Assembly (NCBI RefSeq): GCF_001006305.1
Contig: NZ_LBHJ01000019.1
Coordinates: 186,001-250,000, forward strand
DNA length: 64,000 nt
From: Silvibacterium bohemicum
GTDB taxonomy: Bacteria; Acidobacteriota; Terriglobia; Terriglobales; Acidobacteriaceae
Direction of reading: 5' to 3'
A model generated the notes under the pieces. It searched no databases, was not told the origin of the DNA, and saw only the letters and a program-made list of their open reading frames with translations. Made by a program: the position numbers and the translations under genes. Below are positions 54,772 to 64,000 of this stretch, one piece after another (within the stretch, counting starts at the first letter, position 1; every line of letters begins with the position of its first letter).

Positions 54772-56139
54772 TCAGATTGCGAAAGAAACGACCAGGGCTA
54801 AGAGTAATCCAGTCACCGCGATGATCGTCTCGCAGACCGACCAGGTCTTGATGGTCTCGACCACGCTCATGTTGAAGTACTCTTTGACCAGCCAGAATCC
54901 GCCGTCGTTGACGTGGGAGAAGATGAGCGATCCGGCTCCGGTGACGATGGCCAGCAGCTCGGGGCGAACTCCGGGATTCTGCAGCGCGATGGGAGCGACG
55001 ATGCCGGCCGCGGTGGTCATGGCCACGGTCGATGATCCGGTGGCGAGACGCATGAGAGCCGCCAGGGACCAGGCCAGAATCAACAGCGGAACATGGCTGT
55101 GCATGGCGACGGCGATGATCGCCTTCGAAACACCGCTGTCCTGAAGGATGCGGCCGAAGCCTCCGCCGGCGCCGACAAGGAGGGTGATGGTTGCGGTGGG
55201 TGCGAGGCACTCATTCGTAAAGCGCAGAATGGTTTCGCGGGTAAAGCCTCGCATTTTGCCGAGGGTCCAAAAGCTGAACAGTACGCCGATGAGCAGTGCG
55301 ATGTCATCGTTGCCGACTAGGTGCAAGGCCTCATTGAGGGCGCTCTTGGGCGCGAAGATGGCGTCGGCCCAGCTTCCGAACAACATCAGCAGAACGGGAA
55401 CAAGTATCGTAAGCAAGGTGACGCCGAAGCTGGGAAGCGGGCGCTGTCCTTGACCCGGATCGGCGGCTTCGCGATCGGCGAACTGTGCGGCCATCGGATT
55501 CTCTGCGGCGAGGTGGATATGCGGCGCAATGATTCTCGCGTAGACGGGACCGGCAAGGATCGCCGTGGGGATGCCGATGAGCAGCGCGTAGAAGATGGTG
55601 CGCCCGACATCGGCCTTATAGACCGTGACTGCGAGCAATGCGGCGGGATGCGGCGGGACGAGTCCATGGACTACGGAGAGGCCAGCGAGCATGGGAAGAC
55701 CGACTAGAATCAGCGACGTTTTGGTCTGGCGCGCGACGGTAAAGGCGATGGGGATGAGGAGGACGAAGCCCACCTCGAAGAAGGCGGGAAGGCCGACGAC
55801 CAAACCGATGAGCACCATGGCCCAGCTGATGTTCTTTTCACCGAAAAGCTTGATCAGCGTATATGCGATGCGATCTGCGCCGCCTGACTCGGCCATCATC
55901 TTTCCGAGCATGGTGCCGAGAGCCACGACTACGGCGATGTGGCCAAGGGTTCCTCCGAGACCCGCTTCGAAGGAATGAATCACGGTTTGCAGCGGCATGC
56001 CTGCGACCGCGGCAAGCGACAGCGATGTGACCAGCAGGGTGATGAAGGGGTTGAGCTTGAAGACGGCGATGAGCACGACCAGGCAGATCACCGCGACCAG
56101 GGCCGATACGAGCAGAAAGATGCTGTGGTGATCAATCAT
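54772..56139 (-). CDS. GntP/DsdX-family permease
   Basis: A 455-residue proton-coupled transporter of the gluconate/D-serine permease family, about 12-14 helices. The signatures are VVHGLVPPHPAALLAVTVYK and a late GSLIFSHVNDGGFWLVKEYF. E. coli members transport gluconate (GntP) or D-serine (DsdX). It is the last gene of a minus-strand unit with RidA and D-aminoacylase and is near a PLP D-amino-acid deaminase. A D-amino acid is therefore the more likely substrate than gluconate. The nearby sugar-acid genes keep gluconate or a related acid possible. Confidence 0.87.
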   Translation of the reverse strand: MIDHHSIFLLVSALVAVICLVVLIAVFKLNPFITLLVTSLSLAAVAGMPLQTVIHSFEAGLGGTLGHIAVVVALGTMLGKMMAESGGADRIAYTLIKLFGEKNISWAMVLIGLVVGLPAFFEVGFVLLIPIAFTVARQTKTSLILVGLPMLAGLSVVHGLVPPHPAALLAVTVYKADVGRTIFYALLIGIPTAILAGPVYARIIAPHIHLAAENPMAAQFADREAADPGQGQRPLPSFGVTLLTILVPVLLMLFGSWADAIFAPKSALNEALHLVGNDDIALLIGVLFSFWTLGKMRGFTRETILRFTNECLAPTATITLLVGAGGGFGRILQDSGVSKAIIAVAMHSHVPLLILAWSLAALMRLATGSSTVAMTTAAGIVAPIALQNPGVRPELLAIVTGAGSLIFSHVNDGGFWLVKEYFNMSVVETIKTWSVCETIIAVTGLLLALVVSFAI

Positions 56140-56194
56140 GGGCAGCGGTGTCGCTCTGGGTTCGTGGATTTAGGAAAACGAAAACGGGTCCTGA

Positions 56195-56587
56195 TTAAGC
56201 AGATGGCGACTTATAGGCAATGCAATCAATTTCCACCTTGCAGTCGACCACCATACTTGAGACGACGCAGGCGCGGGCCGGAGGATTCTCTCCGAAATAC
56301 TCTTTGAAGACGGTATTGAAGGAAGAAAAATCACGCGGATCGTCGAGCCAGACACCGCAGCGGACGACGTGCTCCGGCGTGTATCCTGCTTCAGCGAGAA
56401 TGGCCAGCAGGTTGCGAATCGCCTGGTGGGATTGGGCTACGACATTGCCCGTGATGACCTCGCCGTTCACCATCGGAACCTGACCCGAGACGTAAAGCCA
56501 GCCATCGGCCTCCACTGCGCGCGCGAACGGAAGGTGCTGACCACCTGTACCCTTGCCACCTTCGACACCATACCTCTTGATGCTCAT
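56195..56587 (-). CDS. ridA: RidA-family enamine/imine deaminase
   Basis: A 130-residue trimeric RidA protein that hydrolyses reactive enamine/imine intermediates made by PLP deaminases. HLPFARAVEADGWLYVSGQV, VVAQSHQAIRNLLAILAEAG and the active-site PPARACVVSSMVVDCKVEID (Arg and Glu) are all present. AAGGGA supports ATG 56587; the longer frame to 56674 lacks one. It lies between the D-aminoacylase and permease genes, with the deaminase just beyond, which fits imine detoxification. Confidence 0.92.
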   Translation of the reverse strand: MSIKRYGVEGGKGTGGQHLPFARAVEADGWLYVSGQVPMVNGEVITGNVVAQSHQAIRNLLAILAEAGYTPEHVVRCGVWLDDPRDFSSFNTVFKEYFGENPPARACVVSSMVVDCKVEIDCIAYKSPSA

Positions 56588-56609
56588 CTGTATCCCTTTC
56601 TTCTTTCCA

Positions 56610-58064
56610 CTACTGTATCCAGGCTTTTTTTCCACGGCGGAGAAAACGCCCCGCGCGATTCCCCGTCGATCCACTCGCGGTATAGGAGAGGACGCCGTTC
56701 ACCCAGACGCTCTCGATTCCTTCAGATGCCCGCACCGGATCAGCAAATGTAGCCGTGTCGATTACTTTTTCCGGATCGAAGAGCACCAGGTCTGCGTGAT
56801 ATCCGGGCCGAATCAGGCCGCGATCGGCAAGACCGAAGCGATGGGCCGGCATCTGCGTCATCTTGTGGACCGCTTCCGGCAAGGTCAGCAACCGCTCTTC
56901 CCTACTGTATTTCCCTAGCACGCGAGGGAAGGTGCCCCACAATCGGGGATGAGGGCGAGGATCGTTGGGCAGGCCGTCGGAGCCGATCATGGTTGCGGGA
57001 TGCTTTAATATCCGCCGCATGTCTTCTTCTGAAATGCTGTGATAGATGGCTCCGGCGGGCTGGAGTTGTCGCGCCGCATCGAGCTGAGTTACATTCCACG
57101 ACCCTGCGATTTTGGCGAGCGATTGTCCTGCGACTTCCGGATGCGGAGTGCTCCAGGTGATGGTGATCTCGACACGCTCGTCGACCTGGCGCAGATCGAG
57201 GGTGCTGGAACCGGCGGCATAGGGATAACAATCGCAGCCCACGCATTGTGCGGTCCGTGCGTGATCGAGCGCGTGCAAGACTTCGCCGCTGCGGCCCCAA
57301 TTGGCGATGCCCGCGCACTTCAGGTGCGAGACGATGACCGGCACGCGGCTGAGGCGGCCGATACGAAAGGCTTCCTCCATCGCGTCCAGGATCGCTTCTG
57401 TTTCGCTGCGCAGGTGCGTGGTGTATACGGCTCCCGCGGCTGCCAGCGGCTCGGCTAGCGCCAGTACTTCTTCGGTCGAGGCCGCGTTTGCGGAAAGATA
57501 AGCGAGCCCGGAACTGAGGCCCAGCGCCCCGCCGTCGAGGGCTTCCCGCAGTTGCGCGCGCATTGCTTCGACTTCGGCATCCGTGGCGATCCGGTCGAGG
57601 CGGTCCATGTGGTTGTTGCGCAGCGCGGTGTGACCTACCAGTGCTCCAACGTTGACAGCGGGGCGCGCCTCGGCAAGTGCGTCTACATATGCGGCGAAGG
57701 TTGGATAGCGGAAGGCATCCGCCTCTCCAAGCAGGTTCATTGGATCGGGCGGCCCACCGCGCAATTGCACAGGCGCGGCGGAGATACCGCAGTTACCCAC
57801 GATGACGGTGGTCACTCCCTGAGATATTTTGGGCAGCATCTCCGGAGTGCGGATAACGCTGGTGTCGTCATGAGTATGGACATCGATGAAACCAGGAGCC
57901 AGCGCGAGACCCGCGGAGTCAATGACGACCGATGCGCGACAATCCAGAGATCTACCCATCGCTCCGATACGATCGCCTTCGATGGCAACATCCATGCATT
58001 CAGGGGAAGCATTGCTTCCATCGATGACGTTCGCGTTCCGGATCAGTATGTCGCAGTTTCGCAT
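56610..58064 (-). CDS. N-acyl-D-amino-acid deacylase (D-aminoacylase)
   Basis: A 484-residue zinc amidohydrolase releasing D-amino acids from their N-acyl forms. Metal and catalytic residues are recognisable: APGFIDVHTHDD, VTTVIVGNCGISAAP (bridging Cys), TTHLRSETEAI, VIVSHLKCAGIANW and MIGSDGLPND (catalytic Asp). The length matches the family. It leads a minus-strand unit with ridA (22-base gap) and a GntP/DsdX-type permease, divergent from a D-amino-acid deaminase. The set looks like uptake and breakdown of D-amino acids. Confidence 0.92.
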   Translation of the reverse strand: MRNCDILIRNANVIDGSNASPECMDVAIEGDRIGAMGRSLDCRASVVIDSAGLALAPGFIDVHTHDDTSVIRTPEMLPKISQGVTTVIVGNCGISAAPVQLRGGPPDPMNLLGEADAFRYPTFAAYVDALAEARPAVNVGALVGHTALRNNHMDRLDRIATDAEVEAMRAQLREALDGGALGLSSGLAYLSANAASTEEVLALAEPLAAAGAVYTTHLRSETEAILDAMEEAFRIGRLSRVPVIVSHLKCAGIANWGRSGEVLHALDHARTAQCVGCDCYPYAAGSSTLDLRQVDERVEITITWSTPHPEVAGQSLAKIAGSWNVTQLDAARQLQPAGAIYHSISEEDMRRILKHPATMIGSDGLPNDPRPHPRLWGTFPRVLGKYSREERLLTLPEAVHKMTQMPAHRFGLADRGLIRPGYHADLVLFDPEKVIDTATFADPVRASEGIESVWVNGVLSYTASGSTGNRAGRFLRRGKKAWIQ

Positions 58065-58077
58065 GTCAGGTCGTTCA

Positions 58078-58092
58078 GATATAGCCTATATC
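58078..58092. promoter_or_regulatory. Palindrome in divergent promoter (candidate operator)
   Basis: GATATA-GCC-TATATC is a perfect 6-bp palindrome with a 3-base centre in the ~68-base gap between the deacylase and deaminase genes. Its shape resembles sites of GntR/HutC-type regulators. No regulator gene is adjacent, so the binding protein is unknown. Confidence 0.5.
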
Positions 58093-58132
58093 GTATCCGT
58101 GCGTTCGCGGAGATGTTGTGTGGAGGGGTCGT

Positions 58133-59404
58133 TTGAGCAATCGGGATCTCAGGCATTCGGCGAAGATTTCGCCTTTGAACAAGGGACTTGGGGCGCTTGG
58201 CGGGGCGCTCGAGGTAGAGGCGGCCGTGAAGCTCGGCTGGAATCTGCTGCATGAGGACCTCAGCCTGCCTACAGCTGTTCTCTATGAAGATCGCCTGACT
58301 CACAATCTTCGCTGGATGCAGCAATTCGTAACTGAGTACGGAGTGAAGCTCGCGCCGCACGGCAAGACTACGATGGCTCCCAAATTATTTGAGCGGCAAC
58401 TGCAGGGTGGAGCCTGGGGCATTACGCTGGCCACGGCTCATCAGACGCTGGTGGCGTATGAGCATGGGGTGCGCCGCGTATTGATGGCGAATCAGCTTAT
58501 TGGCAAAGCCAATATGTCGATAATTGCGCACCTGCTCGAAGACCCGGCGTTCGAATACTACTGTCTTGTCGATTCGGCCGCGCAGGTCGATCAGCTTGGT
58601 GCGTACTTCAACGCAGCAGGCCGTCGGCTGCTGGTGCTTCTCGAGCTGGGGGCTGCGGGGGGACGAACGGGCGTGCGGGATGACGAGCAGATGTCCTCGG
58701 TGCTTGGCGCACTCTCTCGCTGGAGCGGCGCGCTGGTATTGAGTGGAATCGAGATCTATGAGGGAGTTCTCAGCGACGACGCTTCCATTCGCGCCTTCCT
58801 CCAGCGTGCGGTGGAAGTTACACGAAAGTTGGCGGAGGAAAAGCGCTTTGAGCGCGCTCCGATCCTTCTCTCTGGTGCAGGTTCAGCCTGGTATGACGTG
58901 GTTGCCGAGGTTTTTTCCGCTGCCGGATTCGGAGACGCGGTCGAAATCGTTCTTCGCCCCGGCTGTTATCTCACGCACGACGTAGGCGTCTACCGGGAGG
59001 CGCAGAAAAATATCGAGGAGCGTAATCCGATCGCACACCGGATGCGTTCCAGTCTTCTGCCTGCGCTCCAGGTCTGGGCGTACGTGCAGTCGATACCGGA
59101 GAAAGATCGGGCCATCATTGGATTGGGCAAACGCGATGCGGCCTTCGATGCTGGGCTACCTACGCCTGTGCTGCACTTCCGGCCAGGAAACAAAATCCCT
59201 GAGGCCGCTGCGGCGCACTGGTCGCTCACCAAGATGATGGATCAACATGCTTACATGCTGATCGCGAAGAATGACGATCTTCGCGTGGGCGACATGATCG
59301 GCTTCGATATCTCGCATCCGTGCCTGACCTTCGATAAGTGGAGGACGCTGCCGATCCTGAATGCCGGCTACGATGTCGTGGATATTGTCGAAACCTTCTT
59401 TTGA
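58133..59404 (+). CDS. PLP-dependent D-amino-acid deaminase / D-serine dehydratase-like
   Basis: A ~423-residue fold-type III PLP enzyme of the D-threonine aldolase / eukaryotic-type D-serine dehydratase group. The PLP lysine is in VKLAPHGKTTMAPKLFERQL. The barrel is followed by LRPGCYLTHDVGVY. The C-terminal domain carries the zinc-binding His-x-Cys in DISHPCLTFDKWRTLP. TTG 58133 was chosen because GGAGGGG lies just upstream; a GTG at 58118 is also in frame. It would produce 2-oxo acid and ammonia through an imine, the substrate of the RidA protein encoded next door. Confidence 0.85.
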   Translation: MSNRDLRHSAKISPLNKGLGALGGALEVEAAVKLGWNLLHEDLSLPTAVLYEDRLTHNLRWMQQFVTEYGVKLAPHGKTTMAPKLFERQLQGGAWGITLATAHQTLVAYEHGVRRVLMANQLIGKANMSIIAHLLEDPAFEYYCLVDSAAQVDQLGAYFNAAGRRLLVLLELGAAGGRTGVRDDEQMSSVLGALSRWSGALVLSGIEIYEGVLSDDASIRAFLQRAVEVTRKLAEEKRFERAPILLSGAGSAWYDVVAEVFSAAGFGDAVEIVLRPGCYLTHDVGVYREAQKNIEERNPIAHRMRSSLLPALQVWAYVQSIPEKDRAIIGLGKRDAAFDAGLPTPVLHFRPGNKIPEAAAAHWSLTKMMDQHAYMLIAKNDDLRVGDMIGFDISHPCLTFDKWRTLPILNAGYDVVDIVETFF

Positions 59405-59428: not shown

Positions 59429-59475
59429 AAACTGCAGATCCCTCCACTGCGCTTCGCTACGGTTGGGATGACAAC
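59429..59475 (+). repeat. 47-nt dispersed element, copy 2
   Basis: From AAACTGCAGATCCCTCCACT to GGGATGACAAC, 42 of 47 bases identical to copy 1 at 52361. It overlaps the 3' end of the GH115 gene. The final codons (LSSQP) and the TAG stop of that gene lie inside it. Confidence 0.75.
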
Positions 59476-62426
59476 TTAGATGGCGAAGTGGAATTATCCG
59501 GGAGCGAAGGCGCTTCGGAGTGAAAGCTTTCGGGGAGACCGAGATAACTTGGCGGCGCTGCGATCCCCAGACGCGATGGGCGATCCGATGATCGCGCCAG
59601 AACAATCTTTTCGAGCACCAATCCGGGATCGACGGCGTAGATACTCAGCGTGTGATAGCCCGTCGCTCCTATGGCTAGCGGAAGACTCACTCGCCGCACT
59701 CCGTCACTGACCGCCTTCGCCCAGTCTTCGTCCGTATTGTGGGCGAGTGCATCGACGATCTGCGGCGCTGCATTGTCGATGCTTACGGCAAAACGCAGAC
59801 CGCTGCCGGGAACGAAGTTCAGTGTGGGTGCGAGGATAAATTGCGCATCGAAGTTCCCGGAATCAGTGAACCAGATGCGGTAATCGAGCTTCGCCGAATG
59901 CGTGGGGTCTTCTCCACCCGAAGCATCTACCGGGAAGAGGGTCATCGCGGATAGCGTTTCACCGTAGTCCGGCAACAGCTCCCAGTGCATAGCATTCTTA
60001 TCGCCGGCATTCTCGCGGCGAGTGGTGTGTTCGGCGTTGATGGAGACTGCTCCGTCGGCTTCGATGAAACCTTGCAGAGAGCTGCGTGTAACACCCTCCG
60101 GCTTCAGCGCGTGGATGCGGACATCGTAACCGTCGCCCTTCTGTTGGGCGATGTGAATCGTGGCGTTGTTATTGCCTGAAGACACAGCGGCCCAATCGAT
60201 GCTTACCGAGATGCGCTGCTGATCGGCGACTGTGCCGCTGCTGCTGCTTAAGCGCACCCAGGGAGCATCGGAGGTGGCAGTGTACGAGAAAGATCCGCTG
60301 CCCATGTTGAAGATGTCGATGTCGCGCACCTGCTGATTCAGGCTGTCGAAGCCGGGAAGCGTGAGCGTACCGACATTCGCGGTCAGTGCGAAGGCAGAGC
60401 CTTCCGCGGCAACACCCATACGCGGCGCCGGGGCCGGCTGCACGTAATGCACGGCAGGCATGCTGTTGAGCGGCGGCTCGTTCCAGAAGGTATAGCCGAT
60501 GTGAGTCTGATCCATCATATGGTTCCATCGGCCATTCAGCAGCTCCTGGTTATAGGCATTGGTGATCGCCGCATCCTGATCGAAGAGCTGAAGAGCTTCT
60601 TTGGCTTCCTGATTCGCGCTGCTGCGACCTTGCGTCGCGTACAGATGGTTGCGGCCGGCGGCAATGTAGAGCTCATTTACCGTTGCAGAAGCCTCGATGG
60701 GATGGAGCACCAATTCGAAATACGCGGCGCGGCGCGGCTCTGGAATTTCTTCATTGATCGCCTGAGCTTTGGCTACCAGCGCCTTCCAGTCGGCTTCGAC
60801 TGAATCGGCCTCGTGATCGCGGAGGAGGCTCCAGGTCTCGGGTTCGAGCTGTTCCGGCTTTCTGCGTCCGTTGTACTTGGTGTATTTCGCGAGAAGATCG
60901 GCGATCTCCGATGCATGCTCGGGGCCAAAAGCGTTCGCGGCCCAGCTTTGCGTCCACGATGCGATCTGATCTTGGTTCAGATGCGCTGGATCGCGAGCGA
61001 GGTCGAGAAAGAACTCGATGGGCATCTCCATCGGCTTGAGATCGCCGACGTTGACGATCCAGATGCGATCGGCGCCGTAGTGCAGCGCTAGGTTCATCTG
61101 CTCCCAGACTTTGGGAAGAGGATAGGTTGCGAGCCACTTGTAGGAGCGCGGTCCGCCTACATAATCGAAGTGATAATAGATGCCAGCACCGCCGGGCCGT
61201 TGGCGCTCCGCGGGCGTGGGCAGGCGACGGATGTTGCCCCAGTTGTCATCGCACCACAGCAGGGTCACGTCATCGGGCACGCGCATGCCCTTCTCGTAAT
61301 ATCCCTGCACCTCTTTGTAGAGCGCCCACACCTGAGGATCGCTCTTGAGGGTGGGCGTTGCGTGATCGGCAATGATCTTTCGCTGATCGGCGACGATCTC
61401 CTCGAGGAGCGCAACGTCGTCCGTTTCGGACATCGGCTTATCGCCGTCTCCGCGCATGCCGATGGTGATGGTGCTTTCGTAGTTGGCGTTGCGCTCGATG
61501 CCCTTCGTCCAGAAGTCTTTCAGCTCCGCAGCATTGGCCGCATAATTCCACTCGCCTGTTCCGTGGCGCTTCCATTCCTGCTGAGCGCGGATCATGGGCT
61601 CGTGATGCGAGGTGCCCATGACGATGCCATATTCGTCGGCGAGCTTGGGATTCATCGGATCGTCTTCGTTGAAGGCGCTGTTCCACATGGCCGGCCAGAG
61701 ATAGTTGGCGTGAAGGCGCAGTAGCAGCTCGAAGACGTGCTCGTAAAAACGATGGTTGTAACCGCCGTAGGTTGCGTTTACCCATTCGGTGAGGGCGGGC
61801 GCTTCATCGTTCAGGAAGATGCCGCGATATTTGACGGCGGGTTCGGCGCTGATCCAGCGACCACGCTGCACGTAGAGCGCGTCGTGATGCCAGGGCGGCA
61901 CGTCGGCCCACCAATACCAGGGTGAGACGCCAATCTGCGCGGAGAGATCGTAGATGCCGAAGATGGTTCCGCGCTTGTCGCTGCCGGCGATGACGAGTGC
62001 GCGGCGAATGCCGGGCATCGGATGATCGACTACCTGCGTGAGCGTCGCTTCCCACTTGCCGCGGATGGCGTCGACATCGATCTTGCGTGAGCGAATCAGC
62101 CGGTCGATGACTTCACTGTGGCCGATGGTGCCAGCCAAGATCAGATCCTGCGATCCAAGAGATGATGGACAGCGGAGCTCGGGCTTAGCTCCGGTGACGC
62201 GGCCAAAGTCGGCAGCGAGATCGCCTGCTGCGCGAGTTACACCAGCGTAGTCATTGGCTGCCACGCATAGCGGAAGCACATGACCATTCGCGGCGAGCGA
62301 TAATGCGTCGGCGGTTTCGCTGGTGGCCACATACAGCGGGCCTTGCGTGGCGTGGGCCTTCGGACACGTGGTCCACATCGCGACCAGAACAAGAACGAGC
62401 GGGAGACGCGCCGAAGGAGTTTTCAT
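59457..62426 (-). CDS. GH115 xylan alpha-glucuronidase, exported
   Basis: A 989-residue secreted enzyme that removes (4-O-methyl)glucuronic acid from xylan. A signal peptide (LPLVLVLVAMWTTCPKAHA) precedes an N-terminal domain. The catalytic barrel has KYRGIFLNDEAPALTEW, LHANYLWPAMWNSAFNEDD, GTSHHEPMIRAQQEW, LLWCDDNWGNIRRLP and YYHFDYVGGPRSYKWL. A C-terminal beta region follows (FNMGSGSFSYTATSDAPWVR). Length and motif order fit GH115. It lies eight bases after the mannonate dehydratase gene in one operon, so released glucuronate feeds that pathway. Confidence 0.9.
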   Translation of the reverse strand: MKTPSARLPLVLVLVAMWTTCPKAHATQGPLYVATSETADALSLAANGHVLPLCVAANDYAGVTRAAGDLAADFGRVTGAKPELRCPSSLGSQDLILAGTIGHSEVIDRLIRSRKIDVDAIRGKWEATLTQVVDHPMPGIRRALVIAGSDKRGTIFGIYDLSAQIGVSPWYWWADVPPWHHDALYVQRGRWISAEPAVKYRGIFLNDEAPALTEWVNATYGGYNHRFYEHVFELLLRLHANYLWPAMWNSAFNEDDPMNPKLADEYGIVMGTSHHEPMIRAQQEWKRHGTGEWNYAANAAELKDFWTKGIERNANYESTITIGMRGDGDKPMSETDDVALLEEIVADQRKIIADHATPTLKSDPQVWALYKEVQGYYEKGMRVPDDVTLLWCDDNWGNIRRLPTPAERQRPGGAGIYYHFDYVGGPRSYKWLATYPLPKVWEQMNLALHYGADRIWIVNVGDLKPMEMPIEFFLDLARDPAHLNQDQIASWTQSWAANAFGPEHASEIADLLAKYTKYNGRRKPEQLEPETWSLLRDHEADSVEADWKALVAKAQAINEEIPEPRRAAYFELVLHPIEASATVNELYIAAGRNHLYATQGRSSANQEAKEALQLFDQDAAITNAYNQELLNGRWNHMMDQTHIGYTFWNEPPLNSMPAVHYVQPAPAPRMGVAAEGSAFALTANVGTLTLPGFDSLNQQVRDIDIFNMGSGSFSYTATSDAPWVRLSSSSGTVADQQRISVSIDWAAVSSGNNNATIHIAQQKGDGYDVRIHALKPEGVTRSSLQGFIEADGAVSINAEHTTRRENAGDKNAMHWELLPDYGETLSAMTLFPVDASGGEDPTHSAKLDYRIWFTDSGNFDAQFILAPTLNFVPGSGLRFAVSIDNAAPQIVDALAHNTDEDWAKAVSDGVRRVSLPLAIGATGYHTLSIYAVDPGLVLEKIVLARSSDRPSRLGIAAPPSYLGLPESFHSEAPSLPDNSTSPSKLSSQP

Positions 62427-62434
62427 TGAAAGCT

Positions 62435-63643
62435 CTACCAGTGAAAGAGCGTGCCGTCTTCTTTGCGATTCACCGGAAGATAGGCGCGTTGATAGGGAAA
62501 CCGTTCGGCGAGTTTTTCGTCGATCTCCACACCGAGGCCGGGAGTATCGCCGGGATACATCATGCCCTCGCTGAACGAATAAGCGTGCGGGAAGGTCTCT
62601 TCGGTCTCGGCGTTGTGCGCCATGTGCTCCTGAATGCCGAAATTGTTGATGGCGACGTCGAGATGCAGAGCGGCTGCCATGGCGACTGGAGATAGATCCG
62701 TTGCTCCGTGAGAGCCGGTCTGTACATGGTAGAGAGCGGCGAAGTCCGCAGCCTTCTTCATGGCCGTGATTCCTCCGGCATGCACAACGGTCATGCGGAT
62801 GTAGTCGATGAGCTGTTCGCGAATGAGCTGCTCCGCGTCATAGATGCTGTTGAAGACTTCACCCACCGCGATGGGCGTGGTCGTGTGCTGGCGAATGAGG
62901 CGGAAGCCATCCTGCAACTCCGCCGCAACGGGGTCTTCCATCCAGAAGAGATGATGCGGTTCGAGCTCCTTGCCCAGACGCGCAGCCTGGATCGGGGTCA
63001 GCCGGTGATGAACATCGTGCAGCAGATGCAACTCTTCGCCCAGCCGGGTTCGCAGAGCATCGAAGAGCTTGGGTACATGGCGCAAATACTTCTCAGTCGA
63101 CCATAGACTCTCTGACGGTAGCCCGCGCTCTGCCGGCTCGTATGGCTTGTTGTCTTTCGGAACTCCGTAGGTTGATTTCAAGCCGGGGATGCCGCTTTGA
63201 GCGCGGATCGCGAGATAGCCCAGGTCTTTGTAGCGTGCAACTTCATCGATGGTCTGCTCGATGTCGACGCCGTTGGCATGCGCATAGACCACCGCGCCTT
63301 CGCGGCTTTTGCCTCCGAGCAGGTTATAGACCGGCACCTTGAGAGCTTTGCCTTTGATATCCCACAACGCCATGTCGATGGCGGCGATGGCGGTCATGGT
63401 CACGGGTCCGCGCCGCCAGTAGGCGCCGCGATAGAAGTAGTGCCAGATATCTTCCGTCTGAAAGGGGTCGCGACCGATGAGCGATGGAATCAAGTGGTCC
63501 TGCAGATAGCTGGCGACGGATAGCTCGCGGCCATTCAGAGTTGCATCGCCGAGACCGTAGATGCCTTCATCGGTCTCGATCTTCAAGGTAACGAAGTTGC
63601 GGCCGGGGCTGCAGACAATTACTTTGGCGCTGGTAATTTTCAT
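62435..63643 (-). CDS. manD: D-mannonate dehydratase (ManD/RspA, enolase superfamily)
   Basis: A 402-residue enolase-superfamily enzyme converting D-mannonate to 2-keto-3-deoxygluconate. [20 protein letters not shown] and [20 protein letters not shown] are the capping domain. [31 protein letters not shown] and [11 protein letters not shown] carry metal and catalytic residues. The C-terminus [19 protein letters not shown] is typical of the RspA/ManD group. Some RspA-like members are slow or act on other sugar acids. The neighbours, KDPG aldolase and GH115, support glucuronate catabolism. Confidence 0.92.
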
Positions 63644-63654
63644 GGTGATCCCGG

Positions 63655-64000
63655 TTAGTTTCCTGACCGTGCTTCGCTCACCGCGGCGAGATAAAGCTTT
63701 GCCTGCTCGGTAATGATGTGCGCTTTGCCGGCGCTGATGGCCTTGGTATTAACCAGATCGGCGCCGATGCCGATGGCCACCGCTCCGGCGCGGATATACT
63801 CGCCGGCATTGTCGAGCGAGACGCCGCCGGTGGGAACGAACTTCACATCAGGCAAAGGCGCGCGCAGGGATTTCAGATAGCCAGGGCCTCCGCCCGCGCC
63901 CGCGGGGAAGAGCTTGACTGCATCCGCACCGGCGGTCCACGCGGTGACGATCTCGGTCGGAGTAAATGCTCCGGGCAAAATAGGAATTTCGTTGTCGCGG
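63655..64000 (-). CDS. eda: KDPG/4-hydroxy-2-oxoglutarate aldolase (5' end beyond window)
   Basis: C-terminal ~114 residues of a class I aldolase that splits 2-keto-3-deoxy-6-phosphogluconate to pyruvate and glyceraldehyde 3-phosphate. [20 protein letters not shown] and the Schiff-base Lys in [14 protein letters not shown] are diagnostic, as are [20 protein letters not shown] and the AIGIGADL segment. The frame runs to the window edge without a start. It lies 11 bases before manD, first visible gene of the operon. A KDG kinase would be needed between the two steps and may lie outside. Confidence 0.9.

Follow-up and report, generated by a model that had tools for sequence, protein, structure and literature searches.

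A GntP-linked gene cluster of the acidobacterium Silvibacterium bohemicum with probable N-acetyl-D-glucosaminate catabolism

Described ong systems and the Silvibacterium locus

N-acetyl-D-glucosaminate (2-acetamido-2-deoxy-D-gluconate, GlcNAc1A) is the oxidized end of chitin. The ong cluster of Pseudoalteromonas prydzensis ACAM 620, which has been proven genetically and biochemically, encodes OngB, a D-aminoacylase-like GlcNAc1A deacetylase, OngC, a fold-III pyridoxal 5'-phosphate (PLP) enzyme, and OngD, a RidA protein, along with a TonB receptor, an SSS symporter, an RpiR regulator, a GH20 and a 2-keto-3-deoxygluconate (KDG) kinase, according to the accessible part of the report (PMC9537276). 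In the same part of that source, Pseudoalteromonas OngC converts D-glucosaminate (GlcN1A) to KDG with release of ammonia and has D-Ser and D-Thr as further substrates, and the complete pathway was reported only in Gammaproteobacteria and one Achromobacter, in a count that also demanded a lytic polysaccharide monooxygenase (LPMO) (PMC9537276). Here we describe a related locus of Silvibacterium bohemicum (Acidobacteriota; genome of 6.46 Mb, G000), situated in a stretch of 64,000 nucleotides that was analyzed as a whole (the window; G000:C11:186001-250000), and conclude that it is quite probably an ong-type catabolic module for GlcNAc1A.

The locus shares OngB, OngC and RidA (OngD) with the P. 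prydzensis cluster and has candidates for the kinase and aldolase steps nearby; its OngB, OngC and RidA are 54, 45 and 63% identical to their counterparts in the Pseudoalteromonas sp. CF6-2 cluster. It differs in having a GntP-family permease instead of the SSS symporter OngIT, and in belonging to Acidobacteriota and not to Gammaproteobacteria. When the Pseudoalteromonas cluster proteins were searched against the whole window and the 22 kb beyond it, OngB, OngC and OngD were matched and KdgK weakly, whereas OngIT (E 0.01), OngA and OngOT-1 found no match. What is new compared with the known pathway is that the same chemistry would run in another phylum and with a different transporter, and that neither a nearby OngR nor an AA10 LPMO was found. 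The cluster of Cupriavidus metallidurans CH34 (OngC 65%, OngB 65%, RidA 81% and GntP 67%) has a divergent ongC as in the window, but differs in carrying OngR between the divergent units and a kinase and an aldolase behind ongC, with aldolase-kinase-OngC on one strand and OngR-OngB-RidA-GntP on the other.

A sequence-only reading of this DNA had proposed one functional unit for import, deacylation, PLP-dependent deamination and imine disposal, and our analysis bears this out. All four open reading frames (ORFs) are present where it had placed them, with their families assigned by Pfam. The GntP-family permease, our proposed GlcNAc1A importer (54772..56139; PF02447, 512 bits; TIGR00791, 468 bits, above cut-off), the OngD-like RidA, an enamine/imine hydrolase (56195..56587; PF01042, 93 bits), and the OngB-like putative GlcNAc1A deacetylase, for which the annotation would be D-aminoacylase (56610..58064; PF07969, 153 bits), are encoded in one run on the minus strand, in which 22 bases separate OngB from RidA and 55 bases RidA from the permease. 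The OngC-like fold-III PLP enzyme, a putative glucosaminate deaminase (58133..59404; PF14031, 66 bits, and PF01168), is encoded divergently on the plus strand, 68 bases away. RidA starts at 56587 (the codon at 56593 is ATA), and the fold-III enzyme starts with a TTG preceded by GGAGG, with a GTG at 58118 as an alternative.

For comparison we used 80 named loci, the best 80 of at least 593 stretches encoding a relative of the deaminase in one species-level collection; presence was judged within fetched flanks of up to 10 kb, and counts over the 80 lean to sequences near the window. OngB was found in 79 of these loci, RidA in 70, OngR in 66, GntP in 25 and GH20 in 2. The frequency of OngB and RidA indicates that the gene arrangement is not due to chance, and in 73 of the 79 loci that have both, OngC and OngB are encoded on opposite strands. 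A KDG-type kinase was present in at least 19 loci and an aldolase in at least 13, the kinase counts being lower bounds because, at the threshold used, even the window's own kinase escaped the query. Neither the SSS symporter OngIT (at 1e-6) nor the TonB receptor had a match in the 80 loci.

In the pathway that we propose, GntP would carry GlcNAc1A across the inner membrane. Judging from residues and homology, OngB would strip acetate to yield GlcN1A, effectively a D-amino acid with a sugar tail, from which OngC, by virtue of its clade membership, would eliminate the C3 hydroxyl with PLP and release ammonia to give KDG. RidA would hasten the hydrolysis of the enamine/imine, although the literature has not settled what it does in the ong pathway. 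The last steps would phosphorylate KDG and split it into pyruvate and glyceraldehyde-3-phosphate; candidates for these steps are a PfkB kinase and a 2-keto-3-deoxy-6-phosphogluconate (KDPG) aldolase encoded beyond neighboring GH115 and ManD genes.

Putative deacetylase and deaminase, and RidA

The best PDB matches of the window OngB were 9g5m (648 bits), PpOngB 9kb1 (532 bits), D-aminoacylase 1m7j (471 bits) and 3gip (407 bits); we found no paper on the closest entry, 9g5m/9gv8. In the part of the PpOngB structure report available, Ser292 and Gln298 separate GlcNAc1A deacetylases from D-aminoacylases, which have Thr and Leu or Arg at these positions (PMC12017989). Alcaligenes D-aminoacylase 1m7j and N-acyl-D-glutamate deacylase 3gip have the fold and catalytic residues in common with the window OngB but carry Thr in place of Ser292 (for 3gip as given in that part of PMC12017989). 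Of 16 PpOngB positions compared (PpOngB numbering, which is that of the window protein plus 5 in a gap-free alignment to 9kb1), 15 are identical in the window protein, including Ser292 (S287) and Gln298 (Q293), and the sole mismatch is Gly348, replaced by Ser. The alignment thus retains the Zn ligands Cys97/His222/His252, Asp368 and the specificity pair, with Ser and Gln where D-aminoacylases have Thr and Leu or Arg.

The same pair was found in 99 of 125 OngB homologues, a table from which own copies, duplicates and alignments shorter than 330 residues had been dropped, and in 97 of the 102 with at least 59% identity. By alignment, Thr combined with Pro or Arg occurs in four homologues that are annotated as D-aminoacylase and lie in non-ong contexts. 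In a tree of 48 chosen rows, an OngB clade (100/96) joined the window protein with the OngB of locus L034, WP_209438165. This L034 protein has been named PaOngB and tested as a GlcNAc1A deacetylase; PpOngB, PaOngB and PfOngB were active solely on GlcNAc1A among the substrates tested, a list from which N-acetylgalactosaminate is absent in the accessible part of the source (PMC12017989). A Pantoea protein (L140:7989-9437) that is 55% identical to the window OngB, and so as close as the OngB of Pseudoalteromonas (54%), carries a Thr/Arg pair and has an N-carbamoyl-D-amino-acid hydrolase gene nearby; therefore, identity alone does not separate the two activities.

Regarding the deaminase, the HxC motif noticed by the sequence-only reading is present as H395-P396-C397 and kept in all 12 aligned OngC sequences; together with the Ala_racemase_N and D-ser_dehydrat domains, it places the protein in the PF14031 type. 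A tree of 49 chosen rows united 16 acidobacterial, 17 betaproteobacterial and 4 gammaproteobacterial proteins from cluster contexts in one OngC clade (98/98), leaving outside 12 rows, namely four homologues from other contexts, the L013 protein (39%) and seven distant sequences. The top PDB match was 3gwq (591 bits), which is named D-serine deaminase, while D-threonine aldolases and hydroxyaspartate enzymes scored at most 78 bits. Because Pseudoalteromonas OngC acts on D-Ser and D-Thr, the window enzyme would likely have the same side activity. Among the matches listed, the closest named relatives of the window ongC come from metagenome genomes labelled Acidobacteriaceae or Acidobacteria. Directly behind ongC in one acidobacterial locus lies a gene for a fusion of a beta-lactamase-family protein and a NamZ exo-muramidase (L051:11324-13771). 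The acidobacterial clusters at L050, L051, L052, L059, L066 and L084 showed no RidA in the flanks fetched, although OngD was essential in Pseudoalteromonas.

In databases these genes go under other names, since annotated records label them 'D-aminoacylase', 'amino acid deaminase' and 'RidA'. A match to OngC at 1e-50 was found in 12 of 297 genomes from a phylum-wide draw, 7 of them from the own family (own genome included) and the other 5 with distant matches of 37-43% identity.

The GntP-family permease

No GntP match other than this permease was found in the genome. Compared with E. coli K-12 the permease is 45% identical to GntT, 39% to IdnT, 38% to YjhF and DsdX, and 34% to GntP and GntU (the latter from a cut sequence), and among NCBIfam models the PRK14984 'gluconate transporter' scored 417 bits and the DsdX model 313, both under their cut-offs. 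The earlier proposal of a DsdX-like permease, for which the E. coli DsdX-DsdA pair offers a likeness in having a GntP-family permease beside a PLP deaminase, is rejected on these identities and model scores; DsdA has another PLP fold. In a tree of 54 rows (alignments of at least 300 residues, some partial copies of one permease kept), DsdX fell outside, on a long branch of unsure place. The same reading had warned that the label 'gluconate transporter' may mislead, which we also think, and had named firm grouping with gluconate transporters, along with induction by sugar acids only, as counting against D-amino-acid salvage; half of this applies, as the permease is GntT-like in sequence, but its neighbors are enzymes acting on an amino derivative of gluconate.

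The tree contains an acidobacterial permease clade (99/89) of 19 rows, 5 of them partial copies, representing 14 distinct permeases, all cluster-linked except that of genome G005. The 'ong' label, which was also given to the Silvimonas and Amantichitinum permeases encoded after ongC and before gluconokinase (Amantichitinum by eye), needs 5 changes on this tree against a shuffled mean of 14. Reading the substrate from the tree alone was tried and rejected, since ong-, gluconokinase- and DgaE-linked permeases are mixed. Across 61 relatives, GntP exceeded its cut-off in 10 genomes and OngB matched with at least 66% identity in 12, with both in 8; a strong OngB match thus accompanies 8 of 10 genomes with GntP and 4 of 51 without (Fisher p = 6.6e-6, which is no clean probability because the genomes are related). 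A phylum-wide draw of 119 genomes gave a GntP match at 1e-60 in 3, and in two of these (the own genome and G126) the permease lies beside RidA and OngB. We infer that GntP imports GlcNAc1A; in the open-licence literature we found no paper joining GlcNAc1A with GntP, N-acetylglucosaminate with a transporter, or glucosaminate with a D-aminoacylase. The transporter is thus a changeable part of the ong-type module, and in the one Achromobacter locus scanned an ABC binding protein occupies the gap between ongC and ongR.

Alternatively, the permease could be an ordinary gluconate importer that came to lie behind the ong genes by chance, with GlcNAc1A entering otherwise, an explanation that concerns the transporter only and is compatible with ong-type enzymes. 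The similarity to GntT, the gluconokinase directly after the Silvimonas GntP and the gluconokinase that the own genome carries at another place (C12) speak for it. Nevertheless, we consider it rather unlikely, as this is the sole GntP match of the genome, it immediately follows OngB-RidA both in Cupriavidus and in several acidobacterial loci, and no gluconokinase adjoins it in the window (ORFs, by eye). In addition, a related Paraburkholderia permease (67%) sits with a DgaE-family lyase gene (TIGR01437, 320 bits, under the cut-off of 385) and an annotated RidA.

DgaE, the D-glucosaminate-6-phosphate ammonia lyase, likewise uses PLP to release ammonia from a glucosaminate and yields a KDG compound. 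It has a SelA-like fold unrelated to the window OngC, and the Salmonella DgaE pathway relies on uptake by the phosphotransferase system. In Paraburkholderia the DgaE-family gene is accompanied by a gene of the RidA family and by a related GntP. Noted at L142:872-6293 and L148 were this Paraburkholderia arrangement, with GntP next to the genes of the DgaE-family PLP ammonia lyase and an annotated RidA, and, by eye, a like lyase gene in Caballeronia; this set is perhaps another glucosaminate pathway.

Substrate source, competing substrates and flanking genes

In the own genome, six matches to GH18 and three to GH20 were found, the GH20 genes lying outside the cluster; a GH20 gene is found next to the cluster in the acidobacterial locus L059 and in Silvimonas (L061). 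An own AA10 LPMO as the source of GlcNAc1A is rejected, as no PF03067 match was found in the genome. The cell therefore probably scavenges GlcNAc1A from others or oxidizes the sugar otherwise. An oxidized chitin end is first a lactone, and the cluster contains a 7-bladed lactonase gene in five acidobacterial loci (L038, L041, L050, L051 and L076; Pfam on L050 and L038); judged by eye, three of the encoded proteins have a Tat-like N-terminus. These lactonases fit a GlcNAc1A substrate, although they do not prove it. As a tentative extension, which we hold to be possible but not probable, a mostly AA10-less guild of Acidobacteriota and many Burkholderiales might live on the oxidized amino sugar with GntP as a dedicated GlcNAc1A symporter; where the operon carries a Tat-exported lactonase, GlcNAc might be oxidized to the lactone outside the cytoplasm, in an oxidative route that would parallel the path of glucose through gluconate.

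Several findings weigh against the assignment to GlcNAc1A. AA10 (PF03067) was found in none of 61 genomes, the own included (other LPMO families and pyrroloquinoline quinone dehydrogenases were not searched); of 20 genomes that carry the cluster, own included, only 3 have it (Collimonas, Amantichitinum and Burkholderia lata). OngR was found neither in the window nor in the 22 kb beyond it, the rest of the genome not having been searched, nor in any of the ten named acidobacterial loci, and RidA was not found in the fetched flanks of six of those ten. With respect to the deacetylase, 5 of the 102 close homologues, all cluster-linked, combine Thr at 292 with Gln at 298, and the Pantoea protein, with its Thr/Arg pair and D-amino-acid context, falls inside the OngB clade. 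Nor is GntP bound to this role, as permeases related to that of the window sit with gluconokinase in Acinetobacter (as annotated) and Burkholderia stagnalis (by eye) and, even next to the cluster, in Silvimonas; GntP is also present in genomes G005 (88% complete) and G060, neither of which gave a strong match to OngB or OngC. The kinase near the cluster is only 22% identical to Pseudoalteromonas KdgK (E 2.6e-6), and among the acidobacterial loci compared the kinase-aldolase-ManD-GH115 block stands beside the cluster solely in the Silvibacterium genome, where it may serve glucuronate instead.

A second alternative keeps the enzymology and differs in substrate or source: the module would process another 2-acetamido sugar acid, such as N-acetylgalactosaminate, or an acid from periplasmic oxidation of GlcNAc or glucosamine and not from chitin ends. 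The ong-like cluster of Klebsiella (L030) has a kinase and an aldolase annotated for 2-keto-3-deoxygalactonate, homologues of which (33-37% and 44-47%, respectively) are present in three Paraburkholderia loci (L120, L125 and L128), and the substrate of these four clusters may be a galactosaminate. The scarcity of AA10 and the Tat-like lactonases of three acidobacterial clusters, as if the lactone formed outside the cytoplasm, agree with this alternative. Still, we regard it as unlikely for the window, because the published OngB enzymes act on GlcNAc1A alone, from a list without N-acetylgalactosaminate in the available part of the source (PMC12017989), and because the best models for the window aldolase and kinase are the KDPG/2-keto-4-hydroxyglutarate (KHG) aldolase and the KDG-type kinase, the kinase remaining under all NCBIfam cut-offs shown.

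Finally, salvage of N-acyl-D-amino acids from cell-wall debris by a DsdX-like permease, a D-aminoacylase and a D-serine-dehydratase-like deaminase, the physiological role favored by the sequence-only reading, agrees with the Pfam families, the name of 3gwq, the D-Ser and D-Thr activity reported for Pseudoalteromonas OngC (accessible part of PMC9537276) and the NamZ gene adjoining ongC in L051, but we consider it very improbable given the OngB-type deacylase residues, the exclusive GlcNAc1A activity of published OngB among substrates tested (PMC12017989, in part), the membership of the deaminase in the OngC clade, a permease closer to GntT than to DsdX and the KDG-type kinase and aldolase that betaproteobacterial relatives carry.

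Downstream of ongC and convergent with it, a tight co-directional run on the minus strand (59457-64000, continued at L036:9655-11434) encodes a GH115 glycoside hydrolase (59457..62426; PF15979, 520 bits), of the alpha-glucuronidase family, the D-mannonate dehydratase ManD (62435..63643; NF043051, 717 bits, cut-off 550), the KDPG aldolase KdgA (63655..64000, crossing the window edge to L036:10332; PF01081; TIGR01182, 203 bits, cut-off 156) and, outside the window, the PfkB kinase (L036:10337-11434; PF00294). This run is likely a glucuronoxylan/glucuronate pathway. The other acidobacterial loci compared contain nothing close to ManD, GH115 or the window kinase, so the position of the block near the cluster may be chance. 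The ManD reaction also yields KDG, and therefore a single kinase and aldolase may receive KDG from two routes.

The divergent promoter region between ongB and ongC contains a perfect 15-base palindrome, GATATAG-C-CTATATC (58078..58092, no strand), which could act as an operator or represent a pair of -10 elements placed back to back. The ong intergenic regions of L045, L051 and L076 carry its 11-base core TATAGNCTATA (58080-58090) at the corresponding position. Over six genomes the core is rarer than its reversed control (5 versus 11 exact sites); three genomes have it in the ong intergenic region, the exact core was not found in that region of the remaining three, and the other two sites (G000 and G008) lie inside long ORFs. 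With up to one mismatch it occurs once in the window, as it did in 10 of 100 shuffles. Core frequency is therefore uninformative, and position alone is telling.

If our assignment is true, the oxidative chitin pathway extends well past marine Gammaproteobacteria and into organisms without AA10, which would imply either cross-feeding on oxidized chitin or a sugar-acid source that is still unknown. The transport specificity of GntP and the role of RidA in the pathway would then become directly testable, in a gene neighborhood whose deaminase has relatives in hundreds of stretches and an OngB-like gene almost always nearby among the best of them.

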